Shown: positions 12,414-44,177 of the stretch, in pieces | Numbering within the stretch: position 1 is the first letter of the stretch | Layout: every line of letters starts with the position of its first letter | NCBI RefSeq assembly: GCF_001189965.1 | Contig: NZ_LFLU01000005.1 | Coordinates: 62,001 to 126,000, forward strand | Direction: 5' to 3' | Source: Herbaspirillum rhizosphaerae | GTDB lineage: Bacteria > Pseudomonadota > Gammaproteobacteria > Burkholderiales > Burkholderiaceae_D | Length of the DNA stretch: 64,000 bases | The notes under the pieces: model-generated | What the model saw: only the letters and a program-made list of their open reading frames with translations | What the model was told of the DNA's origin: nothing | Databases searched by the model: none | Program-made: the position numbers and the translations under genes

Positions 12414-12499
12414 GGCTATGATGAAGACGTCATCGGTATGAATATGCCCGGAAGCAATTCCGGCGGCAGATACGGCAGGTCAATCGTGGGAGTCGGCAG

Positions 12500-13330: not shown

Positions 13331-13893
13331 CCGAACGCGTCTTCGTCAATCTCGGGGAAGTGTATTTCGGCCAGGGCGACGTGCAGGTCGAGACCTTGCT
13401 GGGTTCGTGCGTGGCCATCACGTTCTGGCATCCGGTCCGGCATCTGGGGGGATTGTGTCATTTCCTGCTGCCGGCGCGGCGCCTGCATCGCGAAGAGAAC
13501 GCGCATGCCGAGCCGGACGGGCGTTACGGCGACGAGGCGCTGGTGCGCCTGCTCAGCGAAGTGCGTAAGCACGATACGCGGGTCGCCGATTACCGGGTGA
13601 AGGTTTTCGGCGGCGGCAACGTCCTGGGTTTGCCGGCATCGAAAGTGCGAATCGGGCAGGCCAATGTCGACTTTGCGCTGGAGGCATTGCAGCGGCAGCA
13701 GATACCGATCACGGCGCAGGACATCGCCGGCGACGGCTATCGTTATCTGCGTTTCGATATGAATAACGGCGACGTCTGGGTGCGGCGCGGACACGGCGTC
13801 ATGCACGATATGGAAAAGGTCCCGGCAGGACGAATCGGCGCACCTGTGCCGACGCCGGCCGCCGATGTGTTGCTGGAGAGGGGGCGGGAATGA
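13327..13893 (+). CDS. cheD: Chemoreceptor glutamine deamidase CheD
   Basis: Deamidates specific receptor glutamines to methylatable glutamates. 188 residues. The catalytic Cys28 (GSCVAI), His45 (GGLCHF) and a Thr at 23 are visible. It overlaps cheR and cheB by four bases each, so the three adaptation enzymes are translationally coupled. The C-terminal 30 residues are extra and low in complexity. In some species CheD also interacts with CheC, which is not present in this window. Confidence 0.94.
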
Positions 13894-22194: not shown

Positions 22195-23079
22195 TCAGGT
22201 CGGTTGCTGCGCCACATCCGCTTCGCCGTCGCCGGCCAGCGTTTGACGCGCCACCGGCTGGGCTTCGCGCACCAGCGCTTCCGGCGGTTGCACGCGCACC
22301 GGCTGGCTGTGGTCGATGGACGAGGAGAGCACGTTGAGCGTCGCTTCTGGCGCTGCATCCCAGACCGGATCGTCGATCGCTTCGAACACGCGCTTCAGTT
22401 GCGATCCCCAGCTGCGGCGGATCATCTGGAAGTACTGATTTTGTTCGTCGATGGTGACGAAGCGCGTCACGGCCAGGTCGTTGGTGTTGTAGACCAGCAG
22501 ATCCAGCGGCAGGCCGACCGAGATATTCGACTTCAGCGTCGAATCCATGGAAATCAACGCACACTTTGCGGCCTCGTCCAGCGAGGTGTGGGGCGTGACG
22601 ACGCGGTCGATGATCGGCTTGCCGTACTTGGCTTCGCCGATCTGGAAATAGGTGTTTTCGTCGTGCGACTCGATGAAATTGCCGGCCGAATACATCTGGA
22701 ACAGGCGGCAGCGCTCGCCCTTGATCTGGCCGCCGAAGATGATGCTGACATTGAAGTCGATGCCGAATTTGCTCAGTTCTTCCGCATCGCGGTCATGCAC
22801 GGTGCGAATGGCGTCGCCCAGGATCTGCGCGGCTTCGTACATCGAATGTGCCGTCCAGATGGTGCGGCCTTCGGCGTTGGTCTTTTCGGACACGATCTGG
22901 CGGATCGATTGCGAAATGGAAAGATTGCCGGCCGTCATCATTACCATGACGCGCTCGCCCGGATTCTCGTAGACGTTCATCTTGCGGAAGGTGCCGATAT
23001 GATCGACGCCCGCATTGGTCCGTGAGTCGGATAAGAAGACCAGGCCTTCGTTCAGGCGCATGGCAACGCAATAAGTCAT
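22195..23079 (-). CDS. Anbu-type proteasome-like NTN peptidase
   Basis: Ancestral beta-subunit homologue of HslV and the 20S proteasome. 294 residues; removal of Met1 exposes Thr1 (MTYCVAM), the expected nucleophile, with Asp17 (FLSDSRTNAG) and Lys32 (FRKMNVYE) at the positions used by NTN peptidases. The fold-typical strand MVMMTAGNLS follows. The last 40 or so residues after the core are Ala/Gln/Pro-rich and probably disordered. Peptidase activity of Anbu proteins is debated in the literature. The neighbours (alpha-E protein, circularly permuted ATP-grasp, transglutaminases) are the classic Anbu context, suggesting that it cuts or trims a peptide product of those ligases. Confidence 0.9.
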   Translation of the reverse strand: MTYCVAMRLNEGLVFLSDSRTNAGVDHIGTFRKMNVYENPGERVMVMMTAGNLSISQSIRQIVSEKTNAEGRTIWTAHSMYEAAQILGDAIRTVHDRDAEELSKFGIDFNVSIIFGGQIKGERCRLFQMYSAGNFIESHDENTYFQIGEAKYGKPIIDRVVTPHTSLDEAAKCALISMDSTLKSNISVGLPLDLLVYNTNDLAVTRFVTIDEQNQYFQMIRRSWGSQLKRVFEAIDDPVWDAAPEATLNVLSSSIDHSQPVRVQPPEALVREAQPVARQTLAGDGEADVAQQPT

Positions 23080-23224
23080 GATGTGAGATAAAAATGTAAA
23101 AGCCGAATTTTACAGGAAGCCCCGCCGACGCTGAGCATGGGCGGGGCCTAAATGTCGTGAGCCTGACACATTATCGGCAAATTTCTGATAATTCTTAAGT
23201 GTCGGCTTGGCAGAATAATAAAAA

Positions 23225-24229
23225 TTATGCTGCCAAAGGAACAAGAAAGTCTTTGCTGATGCGATTTCCCAGCTCAAAGATGCGTTCCAGAAACACGGTC
23301 AGGTAATCGTGCAGGCCGGCGTCGAGAACTTCTTCGATGCGGCTGAACTTCAGATCGGCGTGCAGCTTGCCGGCGAAGCGTTCCGTGTCTGCGGAAACAT
23401 CGTTGTGCACGTGCTTCAGGTTGCTCAGCACCTGATCCATGCAGGCCGCCAGCGAGCGCGGCATGTCGGCGCGCAGGATCAGCAATTCGGCAACGCGTTC
23501 CGGCGTGATGACGTCGCGATAGACCTTGCGGTAAATCTCGAAGCCGGACACCGAGCGCAGGATCGCCGCCCAGTAATAGAAGTCGATCTGATTGTCCTGG
23601 CCTTTGGCTTCCTTGGTCAGCAGGCTTTGACTCAACTGCGATTGCTGCTGGCTTTGCTTGCCGGTCGCTTCCTTGGCGCCATGGAATTTGACGTCGATGA
23701 TGCGGGCCGTGTTATCGGCGCGTTCGAGGAAAGTGCCGAGGCGGATGAAGTGGAATGCTTCGTCTTTCAGCATGGTGCCGATGGTCACGCCGCGCGACAG
23801 GTGGGAGCGATGCTTGACCCACTCGAAGAAGTCGCTCGGATTTTGCTCCAGCGCGTCCGTCTTCAGGTAGCCCTGCATCTTGATCCAGGTGGCGTTCTGA
23901 ATCTCCCATGCTTCGGTGGTCAGTGCGCCGCGCACGGCGCGTGCGTTTTCGCGCGCCTGCTTGAGGCAGGAAGCGATCGACGATGGATTGCTCGGATCGC
24001 GCACCATGAAGTTGATGACGTCTTTTTGCGTCAGCGTGTCGTACTTCTGGTTATAGCCGTACAGCAGCTCGGAAATGCCGAGCACGGCGCGCCAGCCTTG
24101 TTCGGCGTCGTCGATCGATTGCGGCAGCAGGGCGGTTTGTACGTGCACGTCCAGCATGCGTGCGGTGTTTTCGGCGCGTTCGGTGTAGCGCGCCATCCAG
24201 AAGAGGTGGTCAGCGGTGCGGCTCAACAT
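23225..24229 (-). CDS. Alpha-E domain protein (DUF403)
   Basis: 334 residues, all-helical alpha-E domain beginning MLSRTADHLFWMARYTERAEN, the family signature. Several conserved Arg/Glu pairs recur along the helices. The family has no biochemically proven activity; it is always tied by fusion or adjacency to the circularly permuted ATP-grasp ligase, so it is presumably a partner or substrate-binding subunit. It starts three bases after the ATP-grasp gene's stop. The 145 bases between its stop and the Anbu start (23080-23224) contain no gene and may carry a separate Anbu promoter. Confidence 0.9.
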   Translation of the reverse strand: MLSRTADHLFWMARYTERAENTARMLDVHVQTALLPQSIDDAEQGWRAVLGISELLYGYNQKYDTLTQKDVINFMVRDPSNPSSIASCLKQARENARAVRGALTTEAWEIQNATWIKMQGYLKTDALEQNPSDFFEWVKHRSHLSRGVTIGTMLKDEAFHFIRLGTFLERADNTARIIDVKFHGAKEATGKQSQQQSQLSQSLLTKEAKGQDNQIDFYYWAAILRSVSGFEIYRKVYRDVITPERVAELLILRADMPRSLAACMDQVLSNLKHVHNDVSADTERFAGKLHADLKFSRIEEVLDAGLHDYLTVFLERIFELGNRISKDFLVPLAA

Positions 24230-24232
24230 GTT

Positions 24233-25648
24233 TTATTTCTCCAGAATCCAGGTGTCCTTGGTGCCGCCGCCTTGCGACGAATTCACCACCAGCGAGCCTT
24301 CTTTGAGCGCCACGCGCGTCAGGCCGCCCTTGACCATCGAAACGGTCTTGCCCGACAGCACGAAGGGGCGCAAGTCGAGATGGCGCGGTGCGATGCCGGA
24401 TTCGACATAGGTCGGGCACACCGACAAGGCCAGCGTCGGCTGGGCGATGTAGCCGTCCGGCTTGGCGATCACGCGCTGGCGGAAATCTTCGATTTCCTGC
24501 TTGGTCGATGCGGGACCGACCAGCATGCCGTAGCCGCCGGCGCCGTGGACTTCCTTGACGACCAGCTTTTCCAGGTTGGCCAGCGTGTAGGAAAGATCTT
24601 CCTTCTTGCGGCACTGATAGGTCGGGACGTTGTTGAGGATGGGTTCTTCGGACAGGTAAAACTTGATCATGTCCGGCACGTAGGGATAAATCGATTTGTC
24701 GTCGGCCACGCCGGTGCCGATGGCATTGGTCAGCGTGACCTTGCCGGCGCGATAGGCCGACAGCAGGCCCGGCACGCCCAGCGACGAATCGGCACGGAAC
24801 GCCAGCGGGTCGAGATAGTCGTCGTCGATGCGGCGATAGATCACGTCGACGCGTTTCGGACCGCGCGTGGTGCGCATGTAGACCGTATTGTCCTTGACGA
24901 ACAAGTCCTGTCCTTCGACCAGTTCGACACCCATTTGCTGCGCCAGGAAAGCGTGTTCGAAATACGCCGAGTTGTACATGCCCGGCGTCATCACCACCAC
25001 GGTCGGGTCGACCACGCCGACCGGCGCGACCGAGCGCAGATTGTCGAGCAGCATGTCGGGATAATGATCGACCGGCGCAATCTTGTGGCGCGTGAACAGT
25101 TCAGGGAACAGCCGCATCATCATCTTGCGGTTTTCCAGCATGTAGGACACGCCCGACGGCACGCGCAGGTTGTCTTCCAGTACGTAGAACTCGCCTTCGC
25201 CGGCGCGCACGATGTCGACGCCGGCAATGTGGGCGTAGATGTCGGAGGCGACATCCACGTCCTGCATTTCAGGACGGTATTGCGCGTTCTTCAAAATCTG
25301 CTCGGCGGGAATGACGCCCGCCTTGATGATTTTTTGACCGTGATAGATATCGTGGATGAACATGTTCAGCGCTTTGACGCGCTGCACCAGGCCGGCTTCC
25401 AGCTTGGTCCATTCCGCGGCGTGAATGATGCGCGGAATAATGTCGAAGGGGATCAGCCTTTCCGTACCTGCATCGTTGCCGTAGACCGCGAAGGTAATGC
25501 CGACGCGGCGGAAGATCAGGTCGGATTCGGCGCGTTTGCGAACAATGGTTTCAGCGGATTGTGCGGAGAGCCATGCCGCAAATTCATCATAGTGCTTGCG
25601 TACGGAAACGGCTCCATCGGAATACATCTCATCGAAAAAATTTGCCAT
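24233..25648 (-). CDS. Circularly permuted type 2 ATP-grasp ligase (DUF404/407), stand-alone
   Basis: 471 residues. Predicted to form an amide or peptide bond through an acyl-phosphate. Motifs expected for ATP and metal binding are intact: LEDNLRVPSG with Glu158 and Asn160, RRIDDDYLDP near 272-281, Lys365 followed by the glycine loop GAGGYG (369-374), and DLRPF at 425-429. The circular permutation puts the ATP loop after the metal-binding segment. It heads a minus-strand unit with the alpha-E gene. Comparison with its fused paralogue on the other strand shows that only this copy keeps the full active-site set. Substrate unknown. Of 25649-25897 I can say only that it is AT-richer and probably holds the promoter. 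Confidence 0.9.
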   Translation of the reverse strand: MANFFDEMYSDGAVSVRKHYDEFAAWLSAQSAETIVRKRAESDLIFRRVGITFAVYGNDAGTERLIPFDIIPRIIHAAEWTKLEAGLVQRVKALNMFIHDIYHGQKIIKAGVIPAEQILKNAQYRPEMQDVDVASDIYAHIAGVDIVRAGEGEFYVLEDNLRVPSGVSYMLENRKMMMRLFPELFTRHKIAPVDHYPDMLLDNLRSVAPVGVVDPTVVVMTPGMYNSAYFEHAFLAQQMGVELVEGQDLFVKDNTVYMRTTRGPKRVDVIYRRIDDDYLDPLAFRADSSLGVPGLLSAYRAGKVTLTNAIGTGVADDKSIYPYVPDMIKFYLSEEPILNNVPTYQCRKKEDLSYTLANLEKLVVKEVHGAGGYGMLVGPASTKQEIEDFRQRVIAKPDGYIAQPTLALSVCPTYVESGIAPRHLDLRPFVLSGKTVSMVKGGLTRVALKEGSLVVNSSQGGGTKDTWILEK

Positions 25649-25897
25649 AAATTTGCTTCGTTTTCTGGTGCTGATGCTGGGGGATTTTGGGGCTTCTGAT
25701 CAAGCGAATATTATTTGTAGAATCGTATTGGCCGGCATCCTCATCGCTGGTGAACGTAGACTAAGACTATCACGCCATTTCTGCTTTTGGACAGCGAAAA
25801 TTGCGCGACGTCCCGGCCCGGATTCGCACCAGCGATGGCCGTCCTGACGGGAATGGGAGTGTTGAAAATGCAGTTTCCTTTCAGCGCAAAAATTGGT

Positions 25898-26338
25898 TCA
25901 TGCCCACGGCGTCGGAGCAGGAACGTCGCAGGGCGCAGGCATGTCGATGGTGGTGAAATCAGCCGGGCTGACGATTTCCAGGTATTCCATGTCCGGTGAA
26001 TAATCGAACAGGAAGTGCACGATGCCCGGTCGCTGGTGTACGCAGTCGCCGGTCTTCACCAGCGTGACCTGATCCTCGTACATGAAGCGCGCCCAGCCCT
26101 TGAGCATGATGACGATGTGGAAGTTGGCTTCATGCCGGTGCCAGCCGGTGCCGGCCTCCGGCGCCATGTTGGCTTTGACCAGCTGGGCGATCACCTGGCC
26201 GCCGGTGGCGGCGGCAATGCCCAGGTCCCGGTACAGGAAGAAGTCGCGCAGGCCGCCCGATTCAAACGGCGTATCGCCCTCGCTGACATGGGAGAACACA
26301 TTCAAGGCTGTCGGATTGGTTTCGGTTATCGTATTCAT
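25898..26338 (-). CDS. Cupin domain protein
   Basis: 146 residues from ATG 26338. One double-stranded beta-helix (cupin) domain with metal-ligand pattern HRHEANFH near 78-85 and a second motif GDCVHQRPGIVHFLF. Small single-domain cupins bind a metal and act as isomerases, dioxygenases or ligand sensors; none can be chosen here. It stands alone between the ATP-grasp gene and the GST gene, both on the same strand, with 249 and 151 bases of spacing. Confidence 0.8.
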   Translation of the reverse strand: MNTITETNPTALNVFSHVSEGDTPFESGGLRDFFLYRDLGIAAATGGQVIAQLVKANMAPEAGTGWHRHEANFHIVIMLKGWARFMYEDQVTLVKTGDCVHQRPGIVHFLFDYSPDMEYLEIVSPADFTTIDMPAPCDVPAPTPWA

Positions 26339-26489
26339 CACACTGATCCTTTCTGCGGCGTCCCGCATTTCACGCGATTGAGAATGACGTTGCTGGTGCT
26401 GTCTCCTCTTGTTCTTCCCGGCGAGGCTTTGTGTAAAAAATCAACTTCCAGCGCACACCGCCTGCCGCTGTGCAGACGGCTGCAGGTGT

Positions 26490-27143
26490 TTAAAACTCCA
26501 CATCCAGTTCATCGATATCTTCCGGCTCTTTCTGCGCGGCTGCAATCCATTCTTTCATTTCCGGCATGGCCATGATCCGCTTGCTGTAAGCGGCGCAGAT
26601 CGGTTCGAGCGCGACGTCGTAGGTGATGAAGCGGGTGATCACCGGCGCATACATGGCGTCGGCCATGGTGCGTTCACCGAACAGGTAAGGGCCGCCGTAC
26701 TTGGCCAGGCATTCTTTCCAGATGGTCGTGATGCGCTGGATGTCGGCCTGCGCGCGCGACCAGACTTTGAAATTGGGGAAGTGTGCCTTGAGGTTCATCG
26801 GCAACGCCGAACGCAGGGCGCTGAAGCCGGAATGCATTTCGCCGCAGATCGCGCGGCAATGCGCGCGCGCTGCCTGGTCGGCCGGCAGCAGCTTGGCGGC
26901 GGGGCGGATTTCGTTGAGGTATTCGGCGATGGCCAGCGTATCCCAGACGAAGATGTCGCCATGTTTCAGGCTGGGAACGAGAATGGATGAGGACAGCAGC
27001 AGTATTTCGGCACGTGCATCCGGATCGTCGGGCGAGACGATGTCTTCCTGAAACGGCAGCCCGGCAAATTTGGCGAGCAGCCAGCCACGCATGGACCACG
27101 AAGAATAGTTCTTGCTGGTGATGCGCAAAGTCGTTTTAGGCAT
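26490..27143 (-). CDS. Glutathione S-transferase family protein
   Basis: 217 residues. Thioredoxin-like N-terminal domain with the candidate catalytic Ser in KNYSSWSMRGWL (residues 11-22), the cis-Pro strand SILVPSLKHGD, and the DTLAIAEYL glutathione-binding motif; then the all-helical C-terminal domain ending in a short acidic tail. Resembles the GST subfamily annotated YfcF/maleylacetoacetate-isomerase-like, but the substrate is open. Divergent from the PHB depolymerase gene across a 223-base gap. Confidence 0.88.
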   Translation of the reverse strand: MPKTTLRITSKNYSSWSMRGWLLAKFAGLPFQEDIVSPDDPDARAEILLLSSSILVPSLKHGDIFVWDTLAIAEYLNEIRPAAKLLPADQAARAHCRAICGEMHSGFSALRSALPMNLKAHFPNFKVWSRAQADIQRITTIWKECLAKYGGPYLFGERTMADAMYAPVITRFITYDVALEPICAAYSKRIMAMPEMKEWIAAAQKEPEDIDELDVEF

Positions 27144-27366
27144 GTCAGTCCTTTATGTGTATGTGTACATCTGACTTTGGCGCGTCGATCTCCTGACGCG
27201 CAGTTTGCGTGGACGCGTCGATGTTTCCTGGTGTTGCATTGGTGGTACTTGCAAAGGGCGTGCCAGCGACTCGCATCAGAAAGCGCGCAGGCATACCGCA
27301 TCGAAGGTCAGTGGCATGCATATTGCATCGATTGCAGGACTGGTGAGAACAGAGGGAATCAGTTCT

Positions 27367-28593
27367 ATGACAAATATTTACCAGGCATATCAGCAATACG
27401 CCGACGCCACCGATCCGCTGCGGGCCTCGGCGCGCGCAGCCGCACCGTTTCTGGGGCATAGCTGGCCGGGCTTTCCGTCCAGCCTGACGCTGCGAAAAAT
27501 GTCTGCCGCTTACGAAGTATTTGCCCGTACGCAACTTACGCATGTACGTCCACCCTTCGATATCGACAGCGTGGAAGACGGCGGTCGCACCGTTGCGGTG
27601 CAGGAGCAGGTCGTCGATCAGACGCCGTTCTGCACTTTGTTGCGCTTCCGCAAGGAAACCGCCGCCGAGCAGCCTGCCGTCTTGCTGGTGGCGCCGATGT
27701 CCGGCCACTTCGCCACCTTGCTGCGCGGCACTGTCAAAACTCTGTTGCGCGATCACGACGTCTACATTACCGACTGGCACAACGCCCGCGACATCTCGCT
27801 GGAGCATGGCCGTTTCGGCCTCGATGAATACGTCTCCCATCTGGTGCATTTCCTGCAAACCATCGGTCCCGGCGCGCATATCGTCGCGGTCTGCCAGCCG
27901 ACCGTGGCGGCCATCACCGCGGTGGCCGTGATGGCGGAAGACAACGACGCCGCCCAGCCGCGCACCATGACGCTCATGGCCGGCCCGCTCGATACCCGCG
28001 TCAATCCGACCACAGTCAACGAACTGGCAAAGAGCAAGCCCATCGAATGGTTCGAAAAGAATCTGGTCAGCACGGTGCCGGCGCGCCATCCCGGCGGCGG
28101 CCGGCGCGTGTATCCCGGTTTCATGCAACTGGCGGCGTTCATGAACATGAACATGAATCGCCACGTCGACGCGTTCCGGAATCTGTACAACTATCTCATC
28201 GAGGGAGAGAGCGAAAAAGCCGAAGCAATCAAAGTTTTTTATGAAGAATACTTCGCCATGTCGGACCTGCCGGCGGAGTTTTATCTGGAAACGGTGCGCA
28301 TCGTGTTCCAGGAGCACGCGCTGCCGCTCGGCCTGTTGCAATACAAAGGCCGTCCGGTCAATCTCAAAGCGATCCGGCGCACCGCATTATTCACGGTAGA
28401 AGGTGAAAAAGACGACATCTGCGCCGTCGGCCAGACCGTCGCTGCACAAGATATGTGCAGCAGCATTCGCCCCTATATGCGTTTGCACCATGTGCAAACA
28501 GCGGTCGGCCACTACGGCGTGTTCAACGGACGCCGCTGGGAAAATGAAATCTACCCACGCATGAGGGATTTCATTAATATGCACCACAGGTGA
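27367..28593 (+). CDS. phaZ: Intracellular polyhydroxybutyrate depolymerase
   Basis: Mobilises stored PHB granules to hydroxybutyrate oligomers. 408 residues from ATG 27367; no signal peptide, consistent with an intracellular enzyme. Instead of a Ser lipase box it has Cys176 in VAVCQPTVA, with Asp349 (EKDDI) and His382 (VGHYGV). These correspond closely in spacing to the Cys-Asp-His triad of Ralstonia eutropha PhaZ1. No other pha gene is nearby. The first 160 bases upstream contain an open frame but no plausible start with a ribosome site. Confidence 0.93.
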   Translation: MTNIYQAYQQYADATDPLRASARAAAPFLGHSWPGFPSSLTLRKMSAAYEVFARTQLTHVRPPFDIDSVEDGGRTVAVQEQVVDQTPFCTLLRFRKETAAEQPAVLLVAPMSGHFATLLRGTVKTLLRDHDVYITDWHNARDISLEHGRFGLDEYVSHLVHFLQTIGPGAHIVAVCQPTVAAITAVAVMAEDNDAAQPRTMTLMAGPLDTRVNPTTVNELAKSKPIEWFEKNLVSTVPARHPGGGRRVYPGFMQLAAFMNMNMNRHVDAFRNLYNYLIEGESEKAEAIKVFYEEYFAMSDLPAEFYLETVRIVFQEHALPLGLLQYKGRPVNLKAIRRTALFTVEGEKDDICAVGQTVAAQDMCSSIRPYMRLHHVQTAVGHYGVFNGRRWENEIYPRMRDFINMHHR

Positions 28594-28691
28594 TCAGATA
28601 GCAGATAGCTTGCAGTCGGATCATCTGTCGTTCATCGACGCCCGGCACTACCGTATCCATCAGCTCAACTTGTTTGTTGTAAAGGATCTTC

Positions 28692-31600
28692 ATGTCAATT
28701 CATGTGGCGCTGAACCATGTCACGTCGTACCGTTATGACCGTGCTATCAATCTTGGACCTCAAATCGTCCGCTTGCGGCCGGCCCCGCATTGCCGCACCC
28801 GCATCCTGAGCTATTCCCTGCGCATCCTGCCGGAACCGCATTTCGTCAACTGGCAGCAGGATCCGCAAGCCAACTACATGGCGCGCCTGGTCTTTCCGGA
28901 AAAAACCGAAGAATTCCGCATCGAAGTCGACCTCGTGGCCGAAATGTCGGTCATCAATCCGTTCGACTTCTTCCTTGAACCGTATGCCGAGCAGATTCCT
29001 TTCGAATACGCCAAGGAACTGCAAAACGAGCTGTCGCCGTATCGCAAGACGCTGCCGCTGACACCGCTGTTCCAGAAACTGCTCGACAGCATTCCGCGTG
29101 AAAAGGTGCGCAGCGCCGATTTCCTGGTGGGTTTGAATCAAAAACTGGCCGATCTCGTCGACTACACCATCCGCATGGAGCCGGGCGTGCAGACGCCGGA
29201 AGAGACGCTCACCATCGGATCGGGCTCGTGCCGCGATTCGTCCTGGCTGCTGGTGCAATTGCTGCGCCATCTCGGCCTGGCGTCGCGCTTCGTTTCCGGC
29301 TATCTGATTCAGCTCACCGCCGATCAGAAATCGCTCGACGGCCCTTCGGGCCCGGAAGCCGATTTCACCGATCTGCATGCCTGGTGCGAAGTCTACCTGC
29401 CGGGCGCCGGCTGGGTCGGCCTCGATCCGACGTCCGGCCTGTTCGCCGGCGAAGGTCACATCCCGCTGTCGTGCACGCCCGAGCCGTCGTCGGCGGCGCC
29501 GGTCAGCGGCATGGTCGATCCTTGCGAAGTGGAATTCGAGCACTCCATGAGCGTGTCGCGCTTCTGGGAAGCGCCGCGCGTCACCAAGCCCTATACCGAA
29601 GCGCAATGGGGCGAAATCGAAGAACTCGGCCATGCCATCGACGACGATCTGGATGCGCTTGACGTGCGCCTGACCATGGGCGGCGAGCCGACCTTCGTGG
29701 CGCTCGATTATCCGGACGAACCGGAGTGGAATACCGCGGCGCTGGGCGAGACCAAGAAGCCGCTCGCGGCCGATCTCTACCACCGCATGCGCGAGAAATA
29801 CGCGATCAAAGGCTTGCCGCATTTCGGCCAGGGCAAGTGGTATCCGGGCGAGCAGCTGCCGCGCTGGGCGCTCAACTGCTACTGGCGCCGCGACGGCCAG
29901 CCGATCTGGAACAACCGCGACCTGATCGGCGACGAAACCAAGCCCAACGTCACCGACGACGACATCACCGAGCGCTTCCTCAAAGGCGTTGCGGCGCGCC
30001 TGTCGCTGGACGGCAAGCACGTGTTTTCGGCCTACGAAGACGTGTTCTACTACATGTGGCGCGAACGCCGCCTGCCGGGCAACGTCGATCCTTTCGATTC
30101 CAAACTGGAAGACAAGCAGGAACGCGCGCGCCTGCTGCGCGTGTTCTCGCAAGGTCTCGACAAAGTCGCCGGCCACGTCTTGCCGGTGGCGCGCCGTCCC
30201 GACGAAAGCGGCTGGCAGACCGGCGACTGGTTCCTGCGCAGCGAGCGTTGCTACCTGTATCCGGGCGATTCGCCGCTGGGTTATCGTTTGCCGCTGGATT
30301 CGCAGCCTTGGGTCACTTCCACCGACTATCCGTATGTGTATCCGGAAGATCCGTCGCAACAATTCCAGTCGCTGCCGCAAGCGTCTGAAATCCGCCTGCA
30401 ATACGCCAAGCGTCCTTCGCTGACCGGCGCGACTTCGGTCGCCTTCTTGCAGGATTACTACGCCACGCAGCGCGGCGCAGCGACCACCGGTAACGGCAAA
30501 GGCAATGGTGCGCGTACCGGCGCCGCCGGCGGCGTCCCGGGCGCCTTCGAATCGGCTGACTGGATCACGCGCACCGCCTTGTGCGCTGAAGTGCGCAACG
30601 GCGTGCTGTATCTGTTCATGCCGCCGCTGGCCAAGATGGAAAGCTATCTGGAACTGGTCGCGGCGATCGAAGCGACCGCCGAAGAACTCAAGCAGCCGGT
30701 GCTGATGGAAGGTTACGAGCCGCCGCACGACCCGCGCGTGCGCAAGTTCAGCGTCACGCCGGATCCGGGGGTGATTGAAGTCAACATCCAGCCGGCCTCC
30801 AACTGGACCGAGCTGGTCGACCAGACGACCCACCTGTACGAAGCCGGCCGCGAGTCGCGTCTGACTACCGAAAAGTTCATGCTCGACGGGCATCACTCCG
30901 GCACCGGCGGCGGCAATCATATGGTGATGGGTGGTGCAACCACCGGCGATTCGCCGTTCCTGCGCCGTCCGGATTTGCTGCGCAGCCTGATCAGCTACTG
31001 GCATAACCATCCGTCGCTGTCGTATTTGTTCTCGGGCATGTTCATCGGCCCGACTTCGCAGGCGCCGCGCATCGATGAGGCGCGCAACGATTCCACCGTG
31101 GAAATCGAGCTGGCCTTTGCCGAGATGGAAAACCAGATCGCCAAGGGCGGTTGCCCGCCGTGGCTGGTCGATCGCCTGCTGCGCAATCTGCTGATCGACG
31201 TCACCGGCAACACGCATCGCGCCGAATTCTGCATCGACAAACTGTATTCGCCCGACAGCGCCACCGGCCGTCTCGGCCTGCTGGAACTGCGCGCCTTTGA
31301 AATGCCGCCGCATGCGCGCATGAGCCTGACGCAGCAATTGCTGCTGCGCGCACTGGTGGCGCGTTTCTGGAAGACGCCGTACAAGCCGCAACGCCTGGTG
31401 CGCTGGGGCACGGAACTGCACGATCGTTTCCTGTTGCCGCATTTCATCTGGCAGGATTTCAACGACATCATGGACGACATGCAGGAAGCCGGTTATCCGA
31501 TGCAGGCCGAGTGGTTCGCACCGCACTTCGAGTTCCGTTTCCCCAAGATCGGCGACTTTGCGGTCAAGGGTATGGCGCTGGAATTGCGCACCGCGCTGGA

Positions 31601-32078
31601 ACCTTGGCATGTGCTGGGCGAAGAGGGCAGTTCGTCGGGCACCGCGCGCTACGTCGATTCTTCGCTGGAACGGCTGCAGGTCAAGGTCAGCGGCATGGCG
31701 AAGGACCGTTATGTGCTCACCTGCAACGGCGTTGCCGTGCCTTTGCAGCCGACCGGCGTGGTCGGCGAATTCGTCACCGGCGTGCGTTACCGCGCCTGGC
31801 AGCCGCCGTCGGCCTTGCATCCGACCATCGGCATCGATTCGCCGCTGACCTTCGATCTGGTGGATACCTGGAACGGCCGCAGCCTGGGCGGTTGCCAGTA
31901 CCACGTGGTGCATCCGGGCGGACGCAGTTACGAAACCTTCCCGGTCAATGCCTTCGAAGCGGAAAGTCGTCGCCTGACGCGTTATTTCCGTCTCAATCAC
32001 ACACCGGGAAAGATGGAAGTTACCTCTGCAAGACCGTCAATCGAGTTCCCATTTACGTTAGACTTGAGACATTTCTAA
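28692..32078 (+). CDS. Transglutaminase / DUF2126 glutamine-synthetase-like ligase fusion
   Basis: 1128 residues. The first 300 are a bacterial transglutaminase N-terminal beta domain plus a papain-like transglutaminase core with Cys180 (GSGSCRDSS), His229 (LHAWCEVY) and Asp245 (GLDPTSG). From about 320 on comes DUF2126, classified by comparative genomics as a circularly permuted glutamine-synthetase-like amidoligase. Candidate metal/substrate segments are LTMGGEPTF, HRAEFCIDKLY and GLLELRAFEMPPH. Starts with AAGGA before ATG and is followed by the ATP-grasp/alpha-E fusion 73 bases downstream. It may both ligate and hydrolyse or transfer amide bonds in one chain. Substrate unknown. High confidence in domains, low in role. 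Confidence 0.9.
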   Translation: MSIHVALNHVTSYRYDRAINLGPQIVRLRPAPHCRTRILSYSLRILPEPHFVNWQQDPQANYMARLVFPEKTEEFRIEVDLVAEMSVINPFDFFLEPYAEQIPFEYAKELQNELSPYRKTLPLTPLFQKLLDSIPREKVRSADFLVGLNQKLADLVDYTIRMEPGVQTPEETLTIGSGSCRDSSWLLVQLLRHLGLASRFVSGYLIQLTADQKSLDGPSGPEADFTDLHAWCEVYLPGAGWVGLDPTSGLFAGEGHIPLSCTPEPSSAAPVSGMVDPCEVEFEHSMSVSRFWEAPRVTKPYTEAQWGEIEELGHAIDDDLDALDVRLTMGGEPTFVALDYPDEPEWNTAALGETKKPLAADLYHRMREKYAIKGLPHFGQGKWYPGEQLPRWALNCYWRRDGQPIWNNRDLIGDETKPNVTDDDITERFLKGVAARLSLDGKHVFSAYEDVFYYMWRERRLPGNVDPFDSKLEDKQERARLLRVFSQGLDKVAGHVLPVARRPDESGWQTGDWFLRSERCYLYPGDSPLGYRLPLDSQPWVTSTDYPYVYPEDPSQQFQSLPQASEIRLQYAKRPSLTGATSVAFLQDYYATQRGAATTGNGKGNGARTGAAGGVPGAFESADWITRTALCAEVRNGVLYLFMPPLAKMESYLELVAAIEATAEELKQPVLMEGYEPPHDPRVRKFSVTPDPGVIEVNIQPASNWTELVDQTTHLYEAGRESRLTTEKFMLDGHHSGTGGGNHMVMGGATTGDSPFLRRPDLLRSLISYWHNHPSLSYLFSGMFIGPTSQAPRIDEARNDSTVEIELAFAEMENQIAKGGCPPWLVDRLLRNLLIDVTGNTHRAEFCIDKLYSPDSATGRLGLLELRAFEMPPHARMSLTQQLLLRALVARFWKTPYKPQRLVRWGTELHDRFLLPHFIWQDFNDIMDDMQEAGYPMQAEWFAPHFEFRFPKIGDFAVKGMALELRTALEPWHVLGEEGSSSGTARYVDSSLERLQVKVSGMAKDRYVLTCNGVAVPLQPTGVVGEFVTGVRYRAWQPPSALHPTIGIDSPLTFDLVDTWNGRSLGGCQYHVVHPGGRSYETFPVNAFEAESRRLTRYFRLNHTPGKMEVTSARPSIEFPFTLDLRHF

Positions 32079-32151
32079 CGCACCCTGTTAAGCCGCCGCC
32101 GTCCGTCATTGCTTCATTGCATGACGGCGGCGGTTGCGCCCCAAAAATTCT

Positions 32152-34704
32152 ATGTATCAGCGCCTCCTGCAAAGCTACACTGCCGACGCCGATCGTTATG
32201 ACGAGATGCTGGCTGCCGACGGCGGTTTGCGCCCACACTGGCGCACGCTGATCGATCAGCTGGAGAATCTTTCTCCCGAGATGATGCGCCGTCGCGCCGA
32301 CGAAGTGCGCGATGCGATTGCCTCCGACGGCATGACGTACAACGTCTACGCCGACCCGCAAGGCGTGAATCGTCCGTGGGAGCTGGACCTGCTGCCGCAG
32401 ATCGTTGCCGCTGATGAGTGGCAAAAGCTGTCGGGCGCCGTCGCGCAGCGTGCACGCCTGCTCAACGGCGTCCTCGCTGATCTGTATGGCGAACAGCAAT
32501 TGCTGTCCGAAGGTTTGCTGCCGCCGGCGCTGGTGTTCGGCCAGCACGGCTACCTGTGGCCGTGCCGCGACGTGCGCCCGCCGGGCGGCGTGCATCTGCA
32601 TTTGTATGCGATCGACCTGGCCCGCTCTGCGGACGGCAAGTGGTGGGTGATCGCCGATCGTACGCAAGGGCCGTCCGGTTCCGGCTATGCCTTGCAGAAT
32701 CGCCAGATCATGATGCGCGCCTTGCCCGAAGCCCTGCGCGACATGCACGTGCAACCCTTGCTCAACTATTTCCACGCACTGCATCAATGCCTCACGCGGT
32801 TGGCGCCGACTTCCGGCGAGCCGCCGCTGGTGGTGCTGCTGACGCCGGGGCCGTACAACGAAACCTATTCCGAGCACGCCTTCCTGGCGCATACGCTGGG
32901 TTTCCCGCTGGTCGAAGGCGTGGACCTCACTGTGCGCGGCGACATGGTCTACCTGAAAACACTGACCGGCCTGCGCCGCGTGCACGCGATCATGCGCCGT
33001 CTGGACGATGATTATTGCGATCCGCTGGAGTTGCGTTCCGACTCGGCGCTGGGGATTCCCGGCCTGACGCAGGCGGCGCGTTCCGGCAACGTGCTGATCG
33101 CCAATGCGCTCGGCAGCGGCGTGCTGGAGTCGACGGCCTTGCACGGCTTCCTGCCGGCGATTTGCCAGCGCCTGCTGGGCGAAGAACTGGCGTTGCCGGC
33201 TGTCGCATCCTGGTGGTGCGGCGAAAAGCCGGCGCTGGAATATACGCTGGCGCATCTGGAAGAGCTGGTGATCATGCCGGCCTTTCCGTCGATGCGCATG
33301 CAGCCGGTGTTCGGCCACACATTGAATGCGCAGGCGCGCCGCCGTCTGGTGGAGAGCCTGCAGTTGCAGCCGCATGCCTATGTCGCGCAGGAATGGGTGC
33401 GCCTGTCGCAGGCGCCGGTGCTGTCGCGCAGCGGCGAATACCGTCTGATGAACCGCACCGTCAGCTTGCGCGTCTTTGCGGTGGCTGACGGCGAAGGCGG
33501 TTACCACGTCATGCCGGGCGGCCTCACGCGCGTGGCGCCGCGCCAGCGTCGCGACGTCGTGTCGATGCAGCAGGGCGGCACCAGCAAGGACGTCTGGGTG
33601 CTCAGCGAAAAAGCCGTCGACGACGATGCCGCGGGTGTCGGCGCCGCCACGGCCGAGACCAGCGTTGCGGTCGGACCGGGCGCCATGACGGATCCGGTGT
33701 CGCGCACCTCGGAGCTGATCCGCACCACCGTCGATGTTTCTTCGCACGCCGGCGAAAACCTGTTCTGGATGGGGCGCTACGCCGAACGCACGGAAAACCT
33801 CACGCGCCTGTTGCGCACCACGCTGCAATGCACGACCGAAGCGCAGAATGAAAACCGCACCATCCTGCGCAGCGTCAGCGAGATCGGCTTGCGCCTCGGC
33901 ATCCTGATGCCGAAGTCGGAGCAGGCGCATCCCACCATCACGGCCTTGCAGCAAAGCCTGCAGGCGGCGATCGCGGACCCGAGCGCCAGCGTCAGCATCG
34001 CCACCCATTTGCGCCACTTGCATCACTCGGGTTATCAGGTGCGCGAGCATCTGTCGCTGGACAACTGGCACGCGCTCAACCGCATGCCGCAAATGGTGCA
34101 GGACAAGATCAATTCGCCCACCGCCATGCTGCACGTCCTCAACAACATCATCCAGGCCTGTTCCGGCCTGGCCGGCCATGCGCTGGACGACATGACGCGC
34201 GATGAAGGCTGGCAGTTCCTGATGATCGGCCGCCATATCGAACGCATGGTGCATCTGGCGACGCTGTTCGACCAGTTCATGCAGCTCGAACCGGCGCGCC
34301 AGAATGCGGCGCTGACCTGGCTGCTGGAATCGTCGAGCAGCATCGTGACCTACCGCGTGCGCTACCGGCGCACGCCGGAATGGCTGCAGGTATTGCATCT
34401 GCTGGTGTTCGACGTCAGCAATCCGCATAGCATCGCCTATCAGTTCCGCATGCTGCAGCATTACCTGACCGACATTGCGCAACAGCTGGGCATCCTGAGC
34501 ATGAATATTCCCGCGCACCTGAGCGAGCAGTTGAACAGCTTCGCCTTGCCCGATTTCGCGCGCGACTCCGCCGCAGCCGAAGCAACCAACGAACGCCTGA
34601 TACAGTTGATGCGAGAAGCCACGGCGGCGGGCTTCTCGCTCACCGACGACCTGGCGCGGCATTTCTTCACGCCGCTCAGCGCGCCGGTCAGCCAGGGCGT
34701 ATGA
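32152..34704 (+). CDS. ATP-grasp / alpha-E fusion protein (DUF404-DUF407-DUF403)
   Basis: 850 residues from ATG 32152 (an upstream TTG at 32134 is in frame). Residues 1-490 are homologous to the stand-alone ATP-grasp ligase encoded on the other strand; residues from about 530 to the end are an alpha-E domain beginning HAGENLFWMGRYAERTEN. Alignment by eye shows that key ATP-grasp residues are replaced: LEDN of the stand-alone enzyme is IADR here (167-170), the Lys plus GAGGYG loop is replaced by MPAFPSMRM (375-383), and DLR is SLR (438-440). RRLDDDYCDP and PGGLTRVAP are kept. So the fused ligase domain may be inactive or use another chemistry. It lies 13 bases before the second transglutaminase gene. 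Confidence 0.88.
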   Translation: MYQRLLQSYTADADRYDEMLAADGGLRPHWRTLIDQLENLSPEMMRRRADEVRDAIASDGMTYNVYADPQGVNRPWELDLLPQIVAADEWQKLSGAVAQRARLLNGVLADLYGEQQLLSEGLLPPALVFGQHGYLWPCRDVRPPGGVHLHLYAIDLARSADGKWWVIADRTQGPSGSGYALQNRQIMMRALPEALRDMHVQPLLNYFHALHQCLTRLAPTSGEPPLVVLLTPGPYNETYSEHAFLAHTLGFPLVEGVDLTVRGDMVYLKTLTGLRRVHAIMRRLDDDYCDPLELRSDSALGIPGLTQAARSGNVLIANALGSGVLESTALHGFLPAICQRLLGEELALPAVASWWCGEKPALEYTLAHLEELVIMPAFPSMRMQPVFGHTLNAQARRRLVESLQLQPHAYVAQEWVRLSQAPVLSRSGEYRLMNRTVSLRVFAVADGEGGYHVMPGGLTRVAPRQRRDVVSMQQGGTSKDVWVLSEKAVDDDAAGVGAATAETSVAVGPGAMTDPVSRTSELIRTTVDVSSHAGENLFWMGRYAERTENLTRLLRTTLQCTTEAQNENRTILRSVSEIGLRLGILMPKSEQAHPTITALQQSLQAAIADPSASVSIATHLRHLHHSGYQVREHLSLDNWHALNRMPQMVQDKINSPTAMLHVLNNIIQACSGLAGHALDDMTRDEGWQFLMIGRHIERMVHLATLFDQFMQLEPARQNAALTWLLESSSSIVTYRVRYRRTPEWLQVLHLLVFDVSNPHSIAYQFRMLQHYLTDIAQQLGILSMNIPAHLSEQLNSFALPDFARDSAAAEATNERLIQLMREATAAGFSLTDDLARHFFTPLSAPVSQGV

Positions 34705-34717
34705 ACGAGACACGAAC

Positions 34718-35653
34718 ATGAGCGACGCCACCTATCACATCGTCCACGAGACCAACTACCAGTACGCCGTGCCGGTGCGCCTGTCGCACCAGGTGCTGCG
34801 ACTGACGCCGCGTTCGCTGCCGTGGCAGACCTGCACCTCGCACTTCATCAACATCCTGCCGGGACCGACCAACCTGATCAACCTGTACACCGACAGCTTC
34901 GGCAATGCGCTGCAGTCGTTTTCCCTCGATCAGGATCACAGCAGCCTCGAGGTGTATGCCGAATCCTGGGTGGAAATTTCATCGCGCACGCTGCCGGTAT
35001 CTACGCCGCCATGGGAGCAGGTGGCAGAGACCTTGTCGTATCACGCCCAGCGCAATTTGCCGCCGGACATGCTGGAAGCTTCCAGCTTCATGTTTGAATC
35101 GTCGCACGTCAGGATCAAGCTGGAATTCGCGCGCTACGCGCTGGAATGTTTCACGCCGGGTTTGTCGCTGCTGGAAGGCGTCGGCGCGCTGATGCGACGC
35201 ATCTTCAATGAATTCACCTTCGATCCCGAAGCGACCACGGTGTCGACGCCGGTTACGGAAGTGTTCGTCAATCAGCGCGGCGTGTGCCAGGACTTTGCGC
35301 ACTTCATGCTGTCCTGCCTGCGTTCGCTGGGCTTGTCGGCGCGCTACGTCAGCGGCTACCTGCTGACGCAACCGCCGCCGGGGCAGATACGCCTGATCGG
35401 CGCCGACGCCTCGCACGCCTGGGTCTCGGTGTATTGTCCGGGCAGCGACGGCCAGCCCGGTTTCTGGATCGATGCCGATCCCACCAACGGCATCTTTCCC
35501 GACATCAGCCACGTCACGCTGGGCTGGGGGCGCGACTTCCTCGACATCTCCCCCCTGCGCGGCGTGCTGATCGGCGGCGGCGCGCAAACCATGCAAGTGG
35601 CGGTCACCGTCATGCCTGCAGAAGAAGTGCCGGGACTGCCTTTCGCGCGCTGA
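34718..35653 (+). CDS. Transglutaminase family protein
   Basis: 311 residues, cytoplasmic (no signal peptide). N-terminal beta domain (about 1-90), then the transglutaminase-like cysteine-peptidase core with Cys190 (RGVCQDFAH), His233 (ASHAWVSVY) and Asp254 (DADPTNG). Such proteins accompany the ATP-grasp/alpha-E/Anbu set and could act as peptidases or amide transferases on its product. Last gene of the plus-strand unit. Its stop is one base away from the stop of the converging symporter gene, leaving no room for a terminator between them. Confidence 0.9.
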   Translation: MSDATYHIVHETNYQYAVPVRLSHQVLRLTPRSLPWQTCTSHFINILPGPTNLINLYTDSFGNALQSFSLDQDHSSLEVYAESWVEISSRTLPVSTPPWEQVAETLSYHAQRNLPPDMLEASSFMFESSHVRIKLEFARYALECFTPGLSLLEGVGALMRRIFNEFTFDPEATTVSTPVTEVFVNQRGVCQDFAHFMLSCLRSLGLSARYVSGYLLTQPPPGQIRLIGADASHAWVSVYCPGSDGQPGFWIDADPTNGIFPDISHVTLGWGRDFLDISPLRGVLIGGGAQTMQVAVTVMPAEEVPGLPFAR

Positions 35654-35654: not shown

Positions 35655-37697
35655 TCAGGGCGTGCGGATATGGTCGATTAAAGCCAGCGTGCGTTCATCG
35701 GGAGGCGGCGTCAGCAAGCTGACGATCACCAGCGCGGCAATGCCGACCGGCACGCCGAAGATGCCGGCTGAGATCGGCGCAATGTGGAACCACTGATTCG
35801 CCGCGTGACCGCCGAAGGCCGGGTGCGTGGTCAGCATGTAATACACGCACATGACAAAGCCGGCGACGATGCCGGCAACGGCGCCGGCCTGGTTGGCGCG
35901 CTTCCAGAAGATGCCCAGCACCAGCGCCGGGAACAAGGTCGATGCCGCCAGCGAAAAGGCCACGCCGACCATGGACAGAATGTCGCCCGGTTTCAACGAC
36001 GCTGCATAGGCGGCCAGCAGGGCAACCACCAGCAGCAACAGCTTGGAAATGGTCACGCGCTTTTGCGACGAGGCCGTCGGGTCGATGACTTTGTAATACA
36101 CGTCGTGCGACAAGGCATTCGAAATCGTCAGCAGCAATCCATCCGCGGTCGACAGCGCCGCCGCCAGCCCGCCGGCCGCCACCAGGCCGGAGATGAAGTA
36201 GGGCAGGCCGGCGATCTCGGGCGTGGCCAGCACGATGATGTCGCCGTCCAGCGCGATCTCGCCGAGCTGCACCACATTGTCGTGATTGAGGTCGGTGATG
36301 CTGACCAGCGGATTGACCTTGTCGATATTGGCCCAGTAGTACACCCAGTCCGGCAGGTGCGCATAGTTGCTGCCGACCAGTGAAGTGTAGATGTCGTACT
36401 TCACCAGGATCGCCAGCGCCGGCACCGTGATGTAGATCAGCATGATGAAGAACAGGGTCCAGAACACCGACTTGCGCGCTTCGTGCACCGTCGGCGTGGT
36501 GTAGTAACGCATCAGGATATGCGGCAGCGCCGCGGTGCCGAGCATCAGGCAAAACACCAGCGCCAGGAAGTTGTTGCGTTTGATCTCCGATGCTTCTTCA
36601 TCTTTGCCGGGGAACGGTTCGGTTTGCGATACCGGCGGCTGCGCGCGCGCCTGGTTGTAGGCTTTGGCGTCGTTCCACTTGCGCTCGGCTTCTTCCGCCG
36701 TTTTGGGATACGCGGTCAGTGCGCGGCTGGCGCTCTTGATCTCGGCCAGCGAAGCGTGGCTGTTGCGTTTGACTTCTTCGATGTGATGTTGCGCATCGAT
36801 GCGGCCGTCCTCCCAGGAGCGCGGCAGGGTCTTCAGTTTTTTGTCGAAGTCGTCGGCGCGCGCCTGGAAGATGGCGCTGACTTCCTTTTCCTTGGGATCG
36901 GCGGCGATGCGTTTTTCGGCCGCGTTCAGTTTGGGCAGCACCGAGCCGTATGCGACTTGCGGCACCGGCACGCTGGTGTGCTTGGCCGACAGCCAGATCA
37001 CCGGTATCAGATAGGCGAACAGGATGATGATGTATTGCGCGACCTGGGTCCAGGTGATCGCGCGCATGCCGCCGAGGAAAGAACACACCAGGATGCTGGC
37101 CAGGCCGAGGAAGATGCCGATCGAAAAATCAATGCCGGTGAAGCGCGATGTGATCAGGCCGACGCCATAAATCTGCGCCACCACGTAGGTGAAGGAAATG
37201 ATGATCGTCGCGATGACCGCCAGGATGCGTACGAAGTTGCCGCTGTAGCGCCCGGAATAACGCTCCGCCAAAAAATCAGCAATGGTGTATTGGCCGAACT
37301 TGCGCAGGTAAGGCGCGATCAACAGGGCGACCAGGCAATAGCCGCCGGTCCAGCCCATGATGTAAGCGAGGCCGTCGAAGCCTTGCAGGTACAAGCCGCC
37401 GGCCAGGCTGATGAAGGTCGCCGCCGAAATCCAGTCGGCGGCGGTCGCCATGCCGTTGAACAGCGCCGGCACGCGCCGTCCGGCGACGTAATATTCCGGC
37501 ACGTCGGAGGTGCGGCAGACGACGCCGATGCCGGCATACAGCGCGATCGTGACGAACATGAACAGGTAGCCGATCCAGGCGCGCGGCATGCCTTCGTGCT
37601 CGAGCACCGCCAGCACCAGCAGGAACAGGATGAAGCCGACCGTGTACCACGCGTAGTAGCCGCTCAGGCGGCGGAAGAATTGCTTGTTAGTCTCCAT
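35655..37697 (-). CDS. Sodium:solute symporter (SSS family, VC_2705-like)
   Basis: 680 residues, about 13 membrane helices. The SSS signature runs through YYVAGRRVPALFNGMATAADWISAATF (partly: GMATAADWISA). Related to acetate/organic-acid permeases such as ActP, but substrate is not decidable. About residues 250-370 form a charged, soluble helical insertion (AEKRIAADPKEKE to EIKRNN) between membrane helices, which makes the protein longer than ActP. The start overlaps the 3' end of the DUF4212 gene by 11 bases; the two are expected to work together. Probably controlled by the two-component system encoded just upstream in the same operon. Confidence 0.9.
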   Translation of the reverse strand: METNKQFFRRLSGYYAWYTVGFILFLLVLAVLEHEGMPRAWIGYLFMFVTIALYAGIGVVCRTSDVPEYYVAGRRVPALFNGMATAADWISAATFISLAGGLYLQGFDGLAYIMGWTGGYCLVALLIAPYLRKFGQYTIADFLAERYSGRYSGNFVRILAVIATIIISFTYVVAQIYGVGLITSRFTGIDFSIGIFLGLASILVCSFLGGMRAITWTQVAQYIIILFAYLIPVIWLSAKHTSVPVPQVAYGSVLPKLNAAEKRIAADPKEKEVSAIFQARADDFDKKLKTLPRSWEDGRIDAQHHIEEVKRNSHASLAEIKSASRALTAYPKTAEEAERKWNDAKAYNQARAQPPVSQTEPFPGKDEEASEIKRNNFLALVFCLMLGTAALPHILMRYYTTPTVHEARKSVFWTLFFIMLIYITVPALAILVKYDIYTSLVGSNYAHLPDWVYYWANIDKVNPLVSITDLNHDNVVQLGEIALDGDIIVLATPEIAGLPYFISGLVAAGGLAAALSTADGLLLTISNALSHDVYYKVIDPTASSQKRVTISKLLLLVVALLAAYAASLKPGDILSMVGVAFSLAASTLFPALVLGIFWKRANQAGAVAGIVAGFVMCVYYMLTTHPAFGGHAANQWFHIAPISAGIFGVPVGIAALVIVSLLTPPPDERTLALIDHIRTP

Positions 37698-43973: not shown

Positions 43974-44177
43974 GTTGTTCTTTTCCTTTTTCTGATCGAA
44001 TCCGGGCCGGCAATTGACAGGCAATTGCAGCCGCTTTGGGATCGACTCTACGGACGAAGTCCGGCGAAAAGAACGATTTTTTTCGCGCTTGCTTATTTGC
44101 TCAGCGCATGTGTTTCAAGGAGATGGTGAGGAACGAACCGGCGCGCGGCAGGCGGGCGCCGGGTGAAGTCGGGGAAA

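Follow-up and report, generated by a model that had tools for sequence, protein, structure and literature searches.

A divergent Anbu, Alpha-E, ATP-grasp and DUF2126 locus with paired sigma54-like sites in Herbaspirillum rhizosphaerae: a possible amide cycle for nitrogen starvation

Two divergent arms of nine genes

The window, that is, the whole stretch of 64,000 nucleotides analysed here, contains nine genes in two back-to-back arms that meet in 27144–27366. Arm A reads leftward (minus strand) in the order GST-cupin-(ATP-grasp)-(Alpha-E)-Anbu, with a GST-family protein as first gene (26490–27143, Pfam), followed by a cupin (25898–26368, Pfam), a stand-alone CP_ATPgrasp_2 ligase (24233–25648; Pfam 561 bits, PDB 3n6x at 6.8e-233), Alpha-E (23225–24229; Pfam 333 bits) and Anbu, an NTN hydrolase and proteasome homologue (22195–23079). 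Arm B reads rightward (plus strand) in the order phaZ-(TG-DUF2126)-(ATP-grasp/Alpha-E)-TG and opens with a PHB depolymerase (PhaZ; 27367–28593; PHB_depo_C 298 bits), presumably of the intracellular type. It continues with a transglutaminase (TG)-DUF2126 fusion (28692–32078; Bact_transglu_N, Transglut_core and DUF2126, the latter at 1346 bits), an ATP-grasp/Alpha-E fusion (32152–34704; CP_ATPgrasp_2 509 bits, Alpha-E 213 bits), for which an upstream TTG at 32134 is likewise open as start, and a stand-alone transglutaminase-like protein (34718–35653, Pfam). Every domain listed in the initial annotation thus has its Pfam match. The divergent arms described there stand as well, but the depolymerase, GST and cupin are no strangers between them: GST and cupin share the orientation of arm A and the depolymerase that of arm B, giving arms of five and four genes.

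By sequence the 22195–23079 product is an Anbu, combining the proteasome-beta fold with an N-terminal Thr1/Asp17/Lys32. It matches Pfam Proteasome (PF00227) at 24.4 bits (cut-off 22.4) and five Anbu-type PDB sequences at 4.9e-89 to 1.3e-65, carries a C-terminal tail of about 50 residues past the Anbu fold, and on inspection keeps Thr1, Asp17 and Lys32 (numbering after the initiator Met), the catalytic residues being named as Thr1, Asp17 and Lys32/33 in extracts of PMC6376114. The Anbu operon as described for Yersinia bercovieri and P. putida (PP_2685–2688), in the parts of the literature drawn on here, comprises ATP-grasp, Alpha-E, transglutaminase-like and Anbu genes, families in common with arm A, whereas arm A of the window is without the transglutaminase: the 145-bp gap 23080–23224 holds no such gene, which is found between Alpha-E and Anbu in homologous loci L036, L083 and L084, and the stand-alone transglutaminase of the window falls in the arm-B clade. 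The statement that all components are present is therefore right for the parts listed but not as to completeness. A further difference from the Anbu operon is that the window adds a back-to-back second arm with DUF2126, as well as phaZ, GST and cupin.

Alpha-E (PF04168) spans the full length of its protein, which is all-helical and falls into two halves homologous to one another; an ER(A)xNTAR motif is present in both, so the conserved ER motif is kept; the window's genome has only two matches at E ≤ 0.001, both within the locus. Among 150 genomes of the order, Alpha-E is carried by 77 of the 78 with Anbu and by all 51 with DUF2126, which bears out the earlier view of the parts as one conserved system. 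Anbu is missing from 5/51 DUF2126 genomes and 6/83 Alpha-E genomes in the same survey; the ligase core can thus do without it, and a tag pathway of the proteasome kind becomes less likely. When neighbour ORFs without a label were clustered, no further component was recognised among the top clusters, which were mainly antisense ORFs and lineage-specific neighbours.

Ligase and hydrolase domains

The arm-A ATP-grasp has an intact Gly-rich loop and an intact ExN motif (E158, N160), which we take to be the metal motif of the ATP-grasp superfamily and which is kept in 75/75 arm-A copies. In the fused arm-B copy ExN is replaced by AxR in the window and by SxR in Azospirillum and Sinorhizobium, and across 97 arm-B sequences E158 and N160 are each kept in none. 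Because the metal motif is lost in 97/97, the locus probably does not encode two working ATP-grasp ligases, and the fused copy is probably a pseudo-ligase. The initial proposal of two amide-forming folds is borne out by the arm-A ATP-grasp and DUF2126. The latter is predicted to adopt a glutamine-synthetase (GS) fold, its predicted model resembling GS, GmaS and 1-naphthylamine GS in a VIA-align comparison, with just 8–14% identity among the matches listed and no PDB sequence match at E ≤ 0.1. DUF2126 differs from GS and the gamma-glutamyl-amide synthetases in being fused to a cysteine-hydrolase domain, namely a transglutaminase domain that keeps its Cys-His-Asp. The stand-alone arm-B transglutaminase likewise keeps its triad (C190/H233/D254), and in a transglutaminase-like alignment of 69 rows Cys is found in 65, His in 68 and Asp in 67.

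A ligase next to an amide hydrolase recalls glutathionylspermidine synthetase/amidase (GspS), in which an ATP-grasp ligase is coupled to a papain-like amidase, and the ATP-grasp of the locus may be paired with amide hydrolases in analogous fashion. An ExN...P-S-like motif seems, by eye, to be shared with GspS and YgiC/YjfC (PF03738), but profile comparison of the ATP-grasp with GspS (hhalign) was not significant; PF03738 has no match in the window's genome and occurs in 7/100 order genomes. As a separate observation, other ATP-grasp positions persist in the arm-B copies, Lys365 in 74/97 (the window's copy has Met there) and, in nearly all of the 97, D145, R427, R273 and D275, which counts against a dead fusion.

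Promoters, nitrogen regulation and the phaZ-GST pair

Between GST and phaZ lie two opposed sigma54-like -24/-12 sites recognised from the DNA sequence only, TGGCACGCCCTTTGCA upstream of GST (27250–27265, minus strand) and TGGCATGCATATTGCA upstream of the depolymerase (27312–27327, plus strand), a sign of sigma54/nitrogen regulation that the initial annotation had overlooked. An opposed pair is lacking in 3/14 phaZ-GST gaps; those of L086 and L088 hold no sigma54 site at up to 3 mismatches, the sites of L087 are weak, and L161, where phaZ and GST are not divergent, has no site pair. For the arm-A ATP-grasp itself, 6/6 loci of the window's family show no separate sigma54 site, and arm A must then depend on read-through over a distance of 249 bp. 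Taking every locus together, 13/70 first genes of the ATP-grasp kind and 24/89 of the DUF2126 kind have no sigma54 site even at 2 mismatches. The window contains no good NtrC-like site, the best having 4 mismatches to the consensus, and sites with at most 1 mismatch are weakly enriched in relatives (4/38 ATP-grasp promoters versus 0.1; 1/53 DUF2126 promoters versus 0.08). These shortfalls count against the sigma54- and NtrC-driven locus favoured below.

Induction has been shown by others in relatives. Extracts of PMC6376114, PMC7801951 and PMC8050072 report nitrogen induction in P. putida (PP_2685–2688); against the favoured reading, PP_2685 (Anbu) shows no increase in the first column (1.12) of the table excerpt from PMC7801951, and PP_2686–2688 stand at 14.2, 16.0 and 19.6, about wild type, in what appears, from an inferred column order, to be the rpoN-mutant column. 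In B. cenocepacia H111, I35_5080–83 and I35_4672–73 are all down in the ntrC mutant (extracts of PMC5491218). These NtrC/sigma54 genes, likened to ours by family names alone, are called ATP-grasp (DUF404/407), Alpha-E (DUF403), TG, large TG, PHB depolymerase and GST, and lie by locus tag in two separate places as opposed to the one divergent locus here. The locus terms searched for are absent from the P. stutzeri NtrC study PMC8443478, and in the extracts of the Caulobacter NtrC study PMC10274813 only 'transglutaminase' occurs, for HvyA.

Whether phaZ, GST and cupin recur had been asked at the outset: they do so together in other genomes, under predicted common regulation and mostly unlinked from the arms. 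The GST subfamily is present in 14/150 order genomes and the depolymerase subfamily in 13/150; of 15 fetched loci with the two, 9 also have the cupin, and most of the homologous loci fetched lack GST and cupin. An unlikely reading, if a serious one, is that a phaZ-GST divergon sits between two arms by chance, common regulation being merely typical of NtrC-regulon genes. Within the stretches fetched, GST does not adjoin the arms in 11/14 GST-subfamily genomes, and L053, L083 and L084, of the window's own family, have arms without adjoining phaZ/GST, both in favour of this reading; against it, phaZ/GST are linked to the arms in the window, L036, L110 and L161 and, at about 2 kb, in L062, and DUF2126 is present in 14/14 GST-subfamily genomes, a count that size-matched draws reach in 38/20000.

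A possible amide cycle under nitrogen starvation

We favour, at a probability of roughly 40%, a single divergent sigma54-driven nitrogen-starvation locus running a cycle of amide making and cutting together with PHB mobilisation. The opposed promoters between GST and phaZ would drive both arms, with NtrC as the likely activator. Arm-A ATP-grasp and GS-like DUF2126, both probably live, would each spend ATP to link a carboxylate with an amine or amino acid, and the transglutaminase-like (cysteine) and Anbu (threonine) hydrolases would cleave amides of the same type, while Alpha-E and the dead ATP-grasp-Alpha-E fusion may act as scaffold or regulator. Nitrogen would most likely be recovered from amines, peptides or tagged protein, and PHB mobilised by PhaZ for carbon and energy. 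The portions of the literature cited here report no substrate or product for Anbu, Alpha-E, permuted ATP-grasp or DUF2126.

A doubtful alternative is protein tagging and degradation, in which proteins would receive a peptide or amino acid from the ligases, trimming would fall to the transglutaminase-like proteases, and Anbu would degrade the tagged proteins so that their amino acids are recycled, as a functional analogue of the Pup-proteasome system. Pup ligase has a GS fold, so that, with DUF2126 modelled as one, both systems would combine a GS-fold ligase with a proteasome homologue, here with its catalytic residues kept, and amino-acid recycling is consistent with nitrogen induction. Unlike the Pup system, the locus offers no recognised tag protein or unfoldase: no conserved small tag ORF was recognised among the top clusters of ORFs of at least 60 aa (short gap ORFs being listed for the window), no AAA+ unfoldase is among the arm genes, and the genomes without Anbu weigh against it too. 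According to extracts of PMC6376114, neither peptidase activity nor a stable partner was seen for purified Anbu, which speaks against this reading and the amide cycle alike; those of another study (PMC5666114) favour Anbu as a protease. The initial suggestion of synthesis and turnover of a peptide or peptide tag keeps its ligase folds, while its tag pathway is weakened. Least convincing is the synthesis, when nitrogen is limiting, of a small non-ribosomal peptide (signal, compatible solute or thiol conjugate) that GST and cupin would tailor. The two ligase folds beside GST and cupin invite this reading, as does a proposal from comparative genomics, cited in extracts of PMC6376114, that two of the proteins form amide bonds. 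Against it, a nitrogen-rich product would be uneconomical in nitrogen starvation, no exporter or carrier is found among the arm genes, and most of the fetched homologous loci are devoid of GST and cupin.

A more detailed version of the amide cycle, improbable as a whole, would have one live ATP-grasp and one live GS-fold ligase, each with Alpha-E and amide hydrolases. An ancient pseudo-ATP-grasp, its metal site swapped for a conserved Arg-Gln pair, would hold together or gate the ligases, and nitrogen would be scavenged through gamma-glutamyl-like conjugates, with PHB breakdown, driven by the same divergent promoter, as the fuel.

Proteins of the Anbu, Alpha-E, permuted ATP-grasp and DUF2126 families occur widely, and the parts were already known; what merits testing is the arrangement of the arms and the dead-looking ligase copy. 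The shared promoter kind, the tie to a single carbon store and the presence in each arm of one ligase that is probably live indicate the condition to examine and the ligases to mutate, and the pseudo-ligase reading marks the copy from which activity would not be expected. A vague 'peptide system' may in this way become a testable nitrogen-starvation pathway.

Gene content and distribution of the two arms

Pfam searches of the window located every protein named in the initial annotation at the coordinates it had first given, in two arms that diverge from a junction at 27144–27366. Arm A, on the minus strand, comprises in leftward order a GST (26490–27143), a cupin (25898–26368), a permuted ATP-grasp protein, Alpha-E (23225–24229) and the proteasome homologue Anbu (22195–23079). 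Arm B, on the plus strand, comprises in rightward order the PHB depolymerase PhaZ (27367–28593), a transglutaminase-like (TG) protein fused to DUF2126 (28692–32078), a permuted ATP-grasp–Alpha-E fusion (32152–34704) and a stand-alone TG. The nearest of 80 named loci, in a comparison from which the window's own record was possibly excluded, is that of a Herbaspirillum frisingense MAG (L110; 83% over DUF2126), which has the same gene order; L036, from the window's family (genome G006), has this order with an arm-A TG in addition. Convergent with arm B lies a VC_2705-family sodium/solute symporter (35655–37697), and a symporter of this family is also close to the locus in L036, L083 and L110. Positions 1–16311 hold the C-terminal part of DnaJ at the edge and then a chemotaxis cluster (CheA-like protein, two MCPs, CheR, CheB and a response-regulator EAL protein). 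Within Alpha-E the sequence is duplicated: residues 1–129 align with 153–300 (score 94; shuffled maximum 52), and each half contains ERAxNTAR. Anbu carries a C-terminal tail of about 50 residues (22195–22347) that extends past solved Anbu structures; in same-family relatives the match reaches residue 283–284 in three and 250 in one.

Across 150 genomes of the order (an identical draw in every search, with family labels running to f50), DUF2126 occurs in 51, Anbu in 78 and Alpha-E in 83. Alpha-E is present in all 51 DUF2126 genomes and in 77 of the 78 with Anbu, Anbu is missing from five DUF2126 genomes, and all 27 genomes with the fusion have DUF2126 and stand-alone Alpha-E. By these counts arm A can occur by itself, DUF2126 is an optional addition, and the fusion supplements the two of them. 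TG-DUF2126 immediately follows Anbu or Alpha-E, with no adjoining fusion, in many fetched homologous loci. The sole genome with Anbu and no Alpha-E match (G082, C5:57467–58324; 60%) could reflect an assembly gap, and in L050 and L064 a second, divergent Anbu (34–35%) precedes ATP-grasp within the same cluster.

The PhaZ subfamily (at least 58% identity; next full-length homologue 49%) is found in 13 of the 150 genomes, a count excluding a fragment in G100, and the GST subfamily (at least 64%; next 49%) in 14, one of which (G149) lacks the PhaZ subfamily. The G100 fragment (L055, 5924–6292; 63%, residues 44–166) lies between the separated arms of the system. PhaZ and GST form a divergent pair in 14 of the 15 fetched loci holding both, the exception being L161, and the cupin accompanies them in nine. 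Every GST-subfamily genome carries DUF2126 (14/14; hypergeometric 7e-8; 1e-4 when restricted to genomes of at least 3.7 Mb; 14 attained in 38 of 20000 size-matched draws), statistics that ignore shared ancestry, the 14 genomes representing nine families. Among fetched loci, the window, L036, L110, L161 and, at about 2 kb, L062 are the only ones where the pair adjoins Anbu/DUF2126 genes.

Sigma54-like sites and probable nitrogen control

Facing GST is a perfect minus-strand sigma54 match (27250–27265), and facing PhaZ a plus-strand one (27312–27327) that is exact if C or T is permitted at position 6. Window-wide, matches with two mismatches are not commoner than in shuffles (41 vs 43.9), so the case for these sites rests on place and conservation. 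Opposed sites with at most two mismatches occur in 11 of 14 divergent PhaZ–GST gaps (500 shuffles: mean 0.056, maximum 1), spanning seven families (f1, f3, f6, f8, f22, f45 and f48, with L110 assigned to f1), and at least one site with at most one mismatch likewise in 11 of 14 (shuffles 0.30); no site was found in the gaps of L086 and L088, and L087 has a weak one. In fetched loci where ATP-grasp or DUF2126 is the first gene, a site with at most one mismatch lies upstream in 39/70 and 53/89 cases, respectively (random windows, same loci: 1.25 and 1.34), the latter becoming 36/72 without Pseudomonas; 13 and 24 of these first genes have no upstream site even at two mismatches. First-gene Anbu (1/16) and fusion (1/21) show little or no excess over random (0.3 each). 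No sigma54 site precedes the arm-A ATP-grasp itself in any of six loci from the window's family (window, L036, L110, L053, L083 and L084), and nitrogen control of arm A would therefore operate here only via read-through from the GST promoter. The lack of an own arm-A site counts against such control, as do NtrC-like sites, which are only weakly enriched in other loci and absent from the window. A further sigma54-like match with one mismatch (43757–43772) is internal to the gene of an NMT1/OpuAC-type ABC substrate-binding protein (43008–44024).

Nitrogen induction has been shown in relatives by published work. An ntrC mutant of B. cenocepacia H111 lowers DUF404/407 8.2-fold, DUF403 9.4-fold, TG 9.4-fold, the large TG 6.0-fold, PHB depolymerase 6.6-fold and GST 5.3-fold (PMC5491218); matched by name alone, these genes represent both window modules, which lie apart in H111 but together here. 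In its kin B. stagnalis, a sigma54 site with one mismatch lies about 85 bp upstream of ATP-grasp. P. putida expresses Anbu (PP_2685) and ATP-grasp (PP_2688) 16- to 22-fold more strongly on nitrate than on ammonium (log2 3.99 and 4.44; PMC8050072), and under N limitation its PP_2685–2687 exceed their C-limited level 6.6- to 11-fold (PMC3325844). In PMC7801951, N limitation raises PP_2686–2688 11- to 15-fold. Counting against nitrogen/sigma54 control, Anbu (PP_2685) is at only 1.12 in the first column there, and the rise of PP_2686–2688 is approximately equal in a column that we read as the rpoN mutant. Three depolymerases are up in N-starved Paraburkholderia phymatum (PMC5748707). Also on the opposing side, a separate study found expression unchanged under several other conditions (PMC5666114, section 14). 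Nitrogen/sigma54 control of Anbu genes is already known in part; the literature searched yielded no statement of Anbu genes jointly with PhaZ–GST in one divergent locus. We put the probability that arm B is under nitrogen-linked sigma54 control at about 0.8, and consider the same control of arm A somewhat favoured.

Active sites of the ATP-grasp and transglutaminase proteins

The metal motif of ATP-grasp enzymes is ExN (E158/N160); a direct profile match of ATP-grasp to GspS failed. In an alignment of 75 arm-A and 97 arm-B sequences, all of arm A keep E158, N160, R162, K318, K365, G371, Y373, G374 and N456. Arm B has A (45), S (33), G (13), N (4), D (1) or R (1) at 158, R (96) or H (1) at 160, Q at 162 and S at 456 in 88 each, and a scattered Gly-rich loop, the window fusion reading A, R, Q at 158, 160 and 162. 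Fusions from Azospirillum and Sinorhizobium likewise read SxR, whereas ExN is intact in the stand-alone proteins of L194 and L195. Some positions do survive in arm B: D145 in 94 sequences, R427 in 96 and K365 in 74, the last being Met in the window. In a 54-row tree (27 per arm) the arms form separate, fully supported sides. Since ExN is lost, the fusion is very probably a pseudo-ligase rather than a ligase, and the conservation of the replacement residues suggests another role.

The TG tree (69 rows) resolves fused, arm-A and arm-B groups, with the window's stand-alone TG in the last. The arm-A TG is present in L036, L083 and L084 and absent in the window and L110. The Cys-His-Asp triad is intact in each of the window's two TG domains, and the catalytic Cys is kept in 65 of the 69 rows, all four exceptions falling in the arm-A group. 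Ser or Gly replaces it in the arm-A-type TGs L152 7994, L150 9998, L141 1594 and L055 17091, hosted by a Burkholderia, two Achromobacter and G100.

A putative nitrogen-recovery cycle

Alongside the gene content, conservation, sites and motif loss observed here, we propose a cycle in which sigma54/NtrC would control the locus, the arm-A ATP-grasp and DUF2126 would carry out ligation, TG and Anbu would carry out hydrolysis, and the fusion may act as a scaffold. As a whole this cycle is tentative, and we rate it somewhat below even odds. Its purpose would be nitrogen recovery, with PHB as the likely source of carbon and energy.
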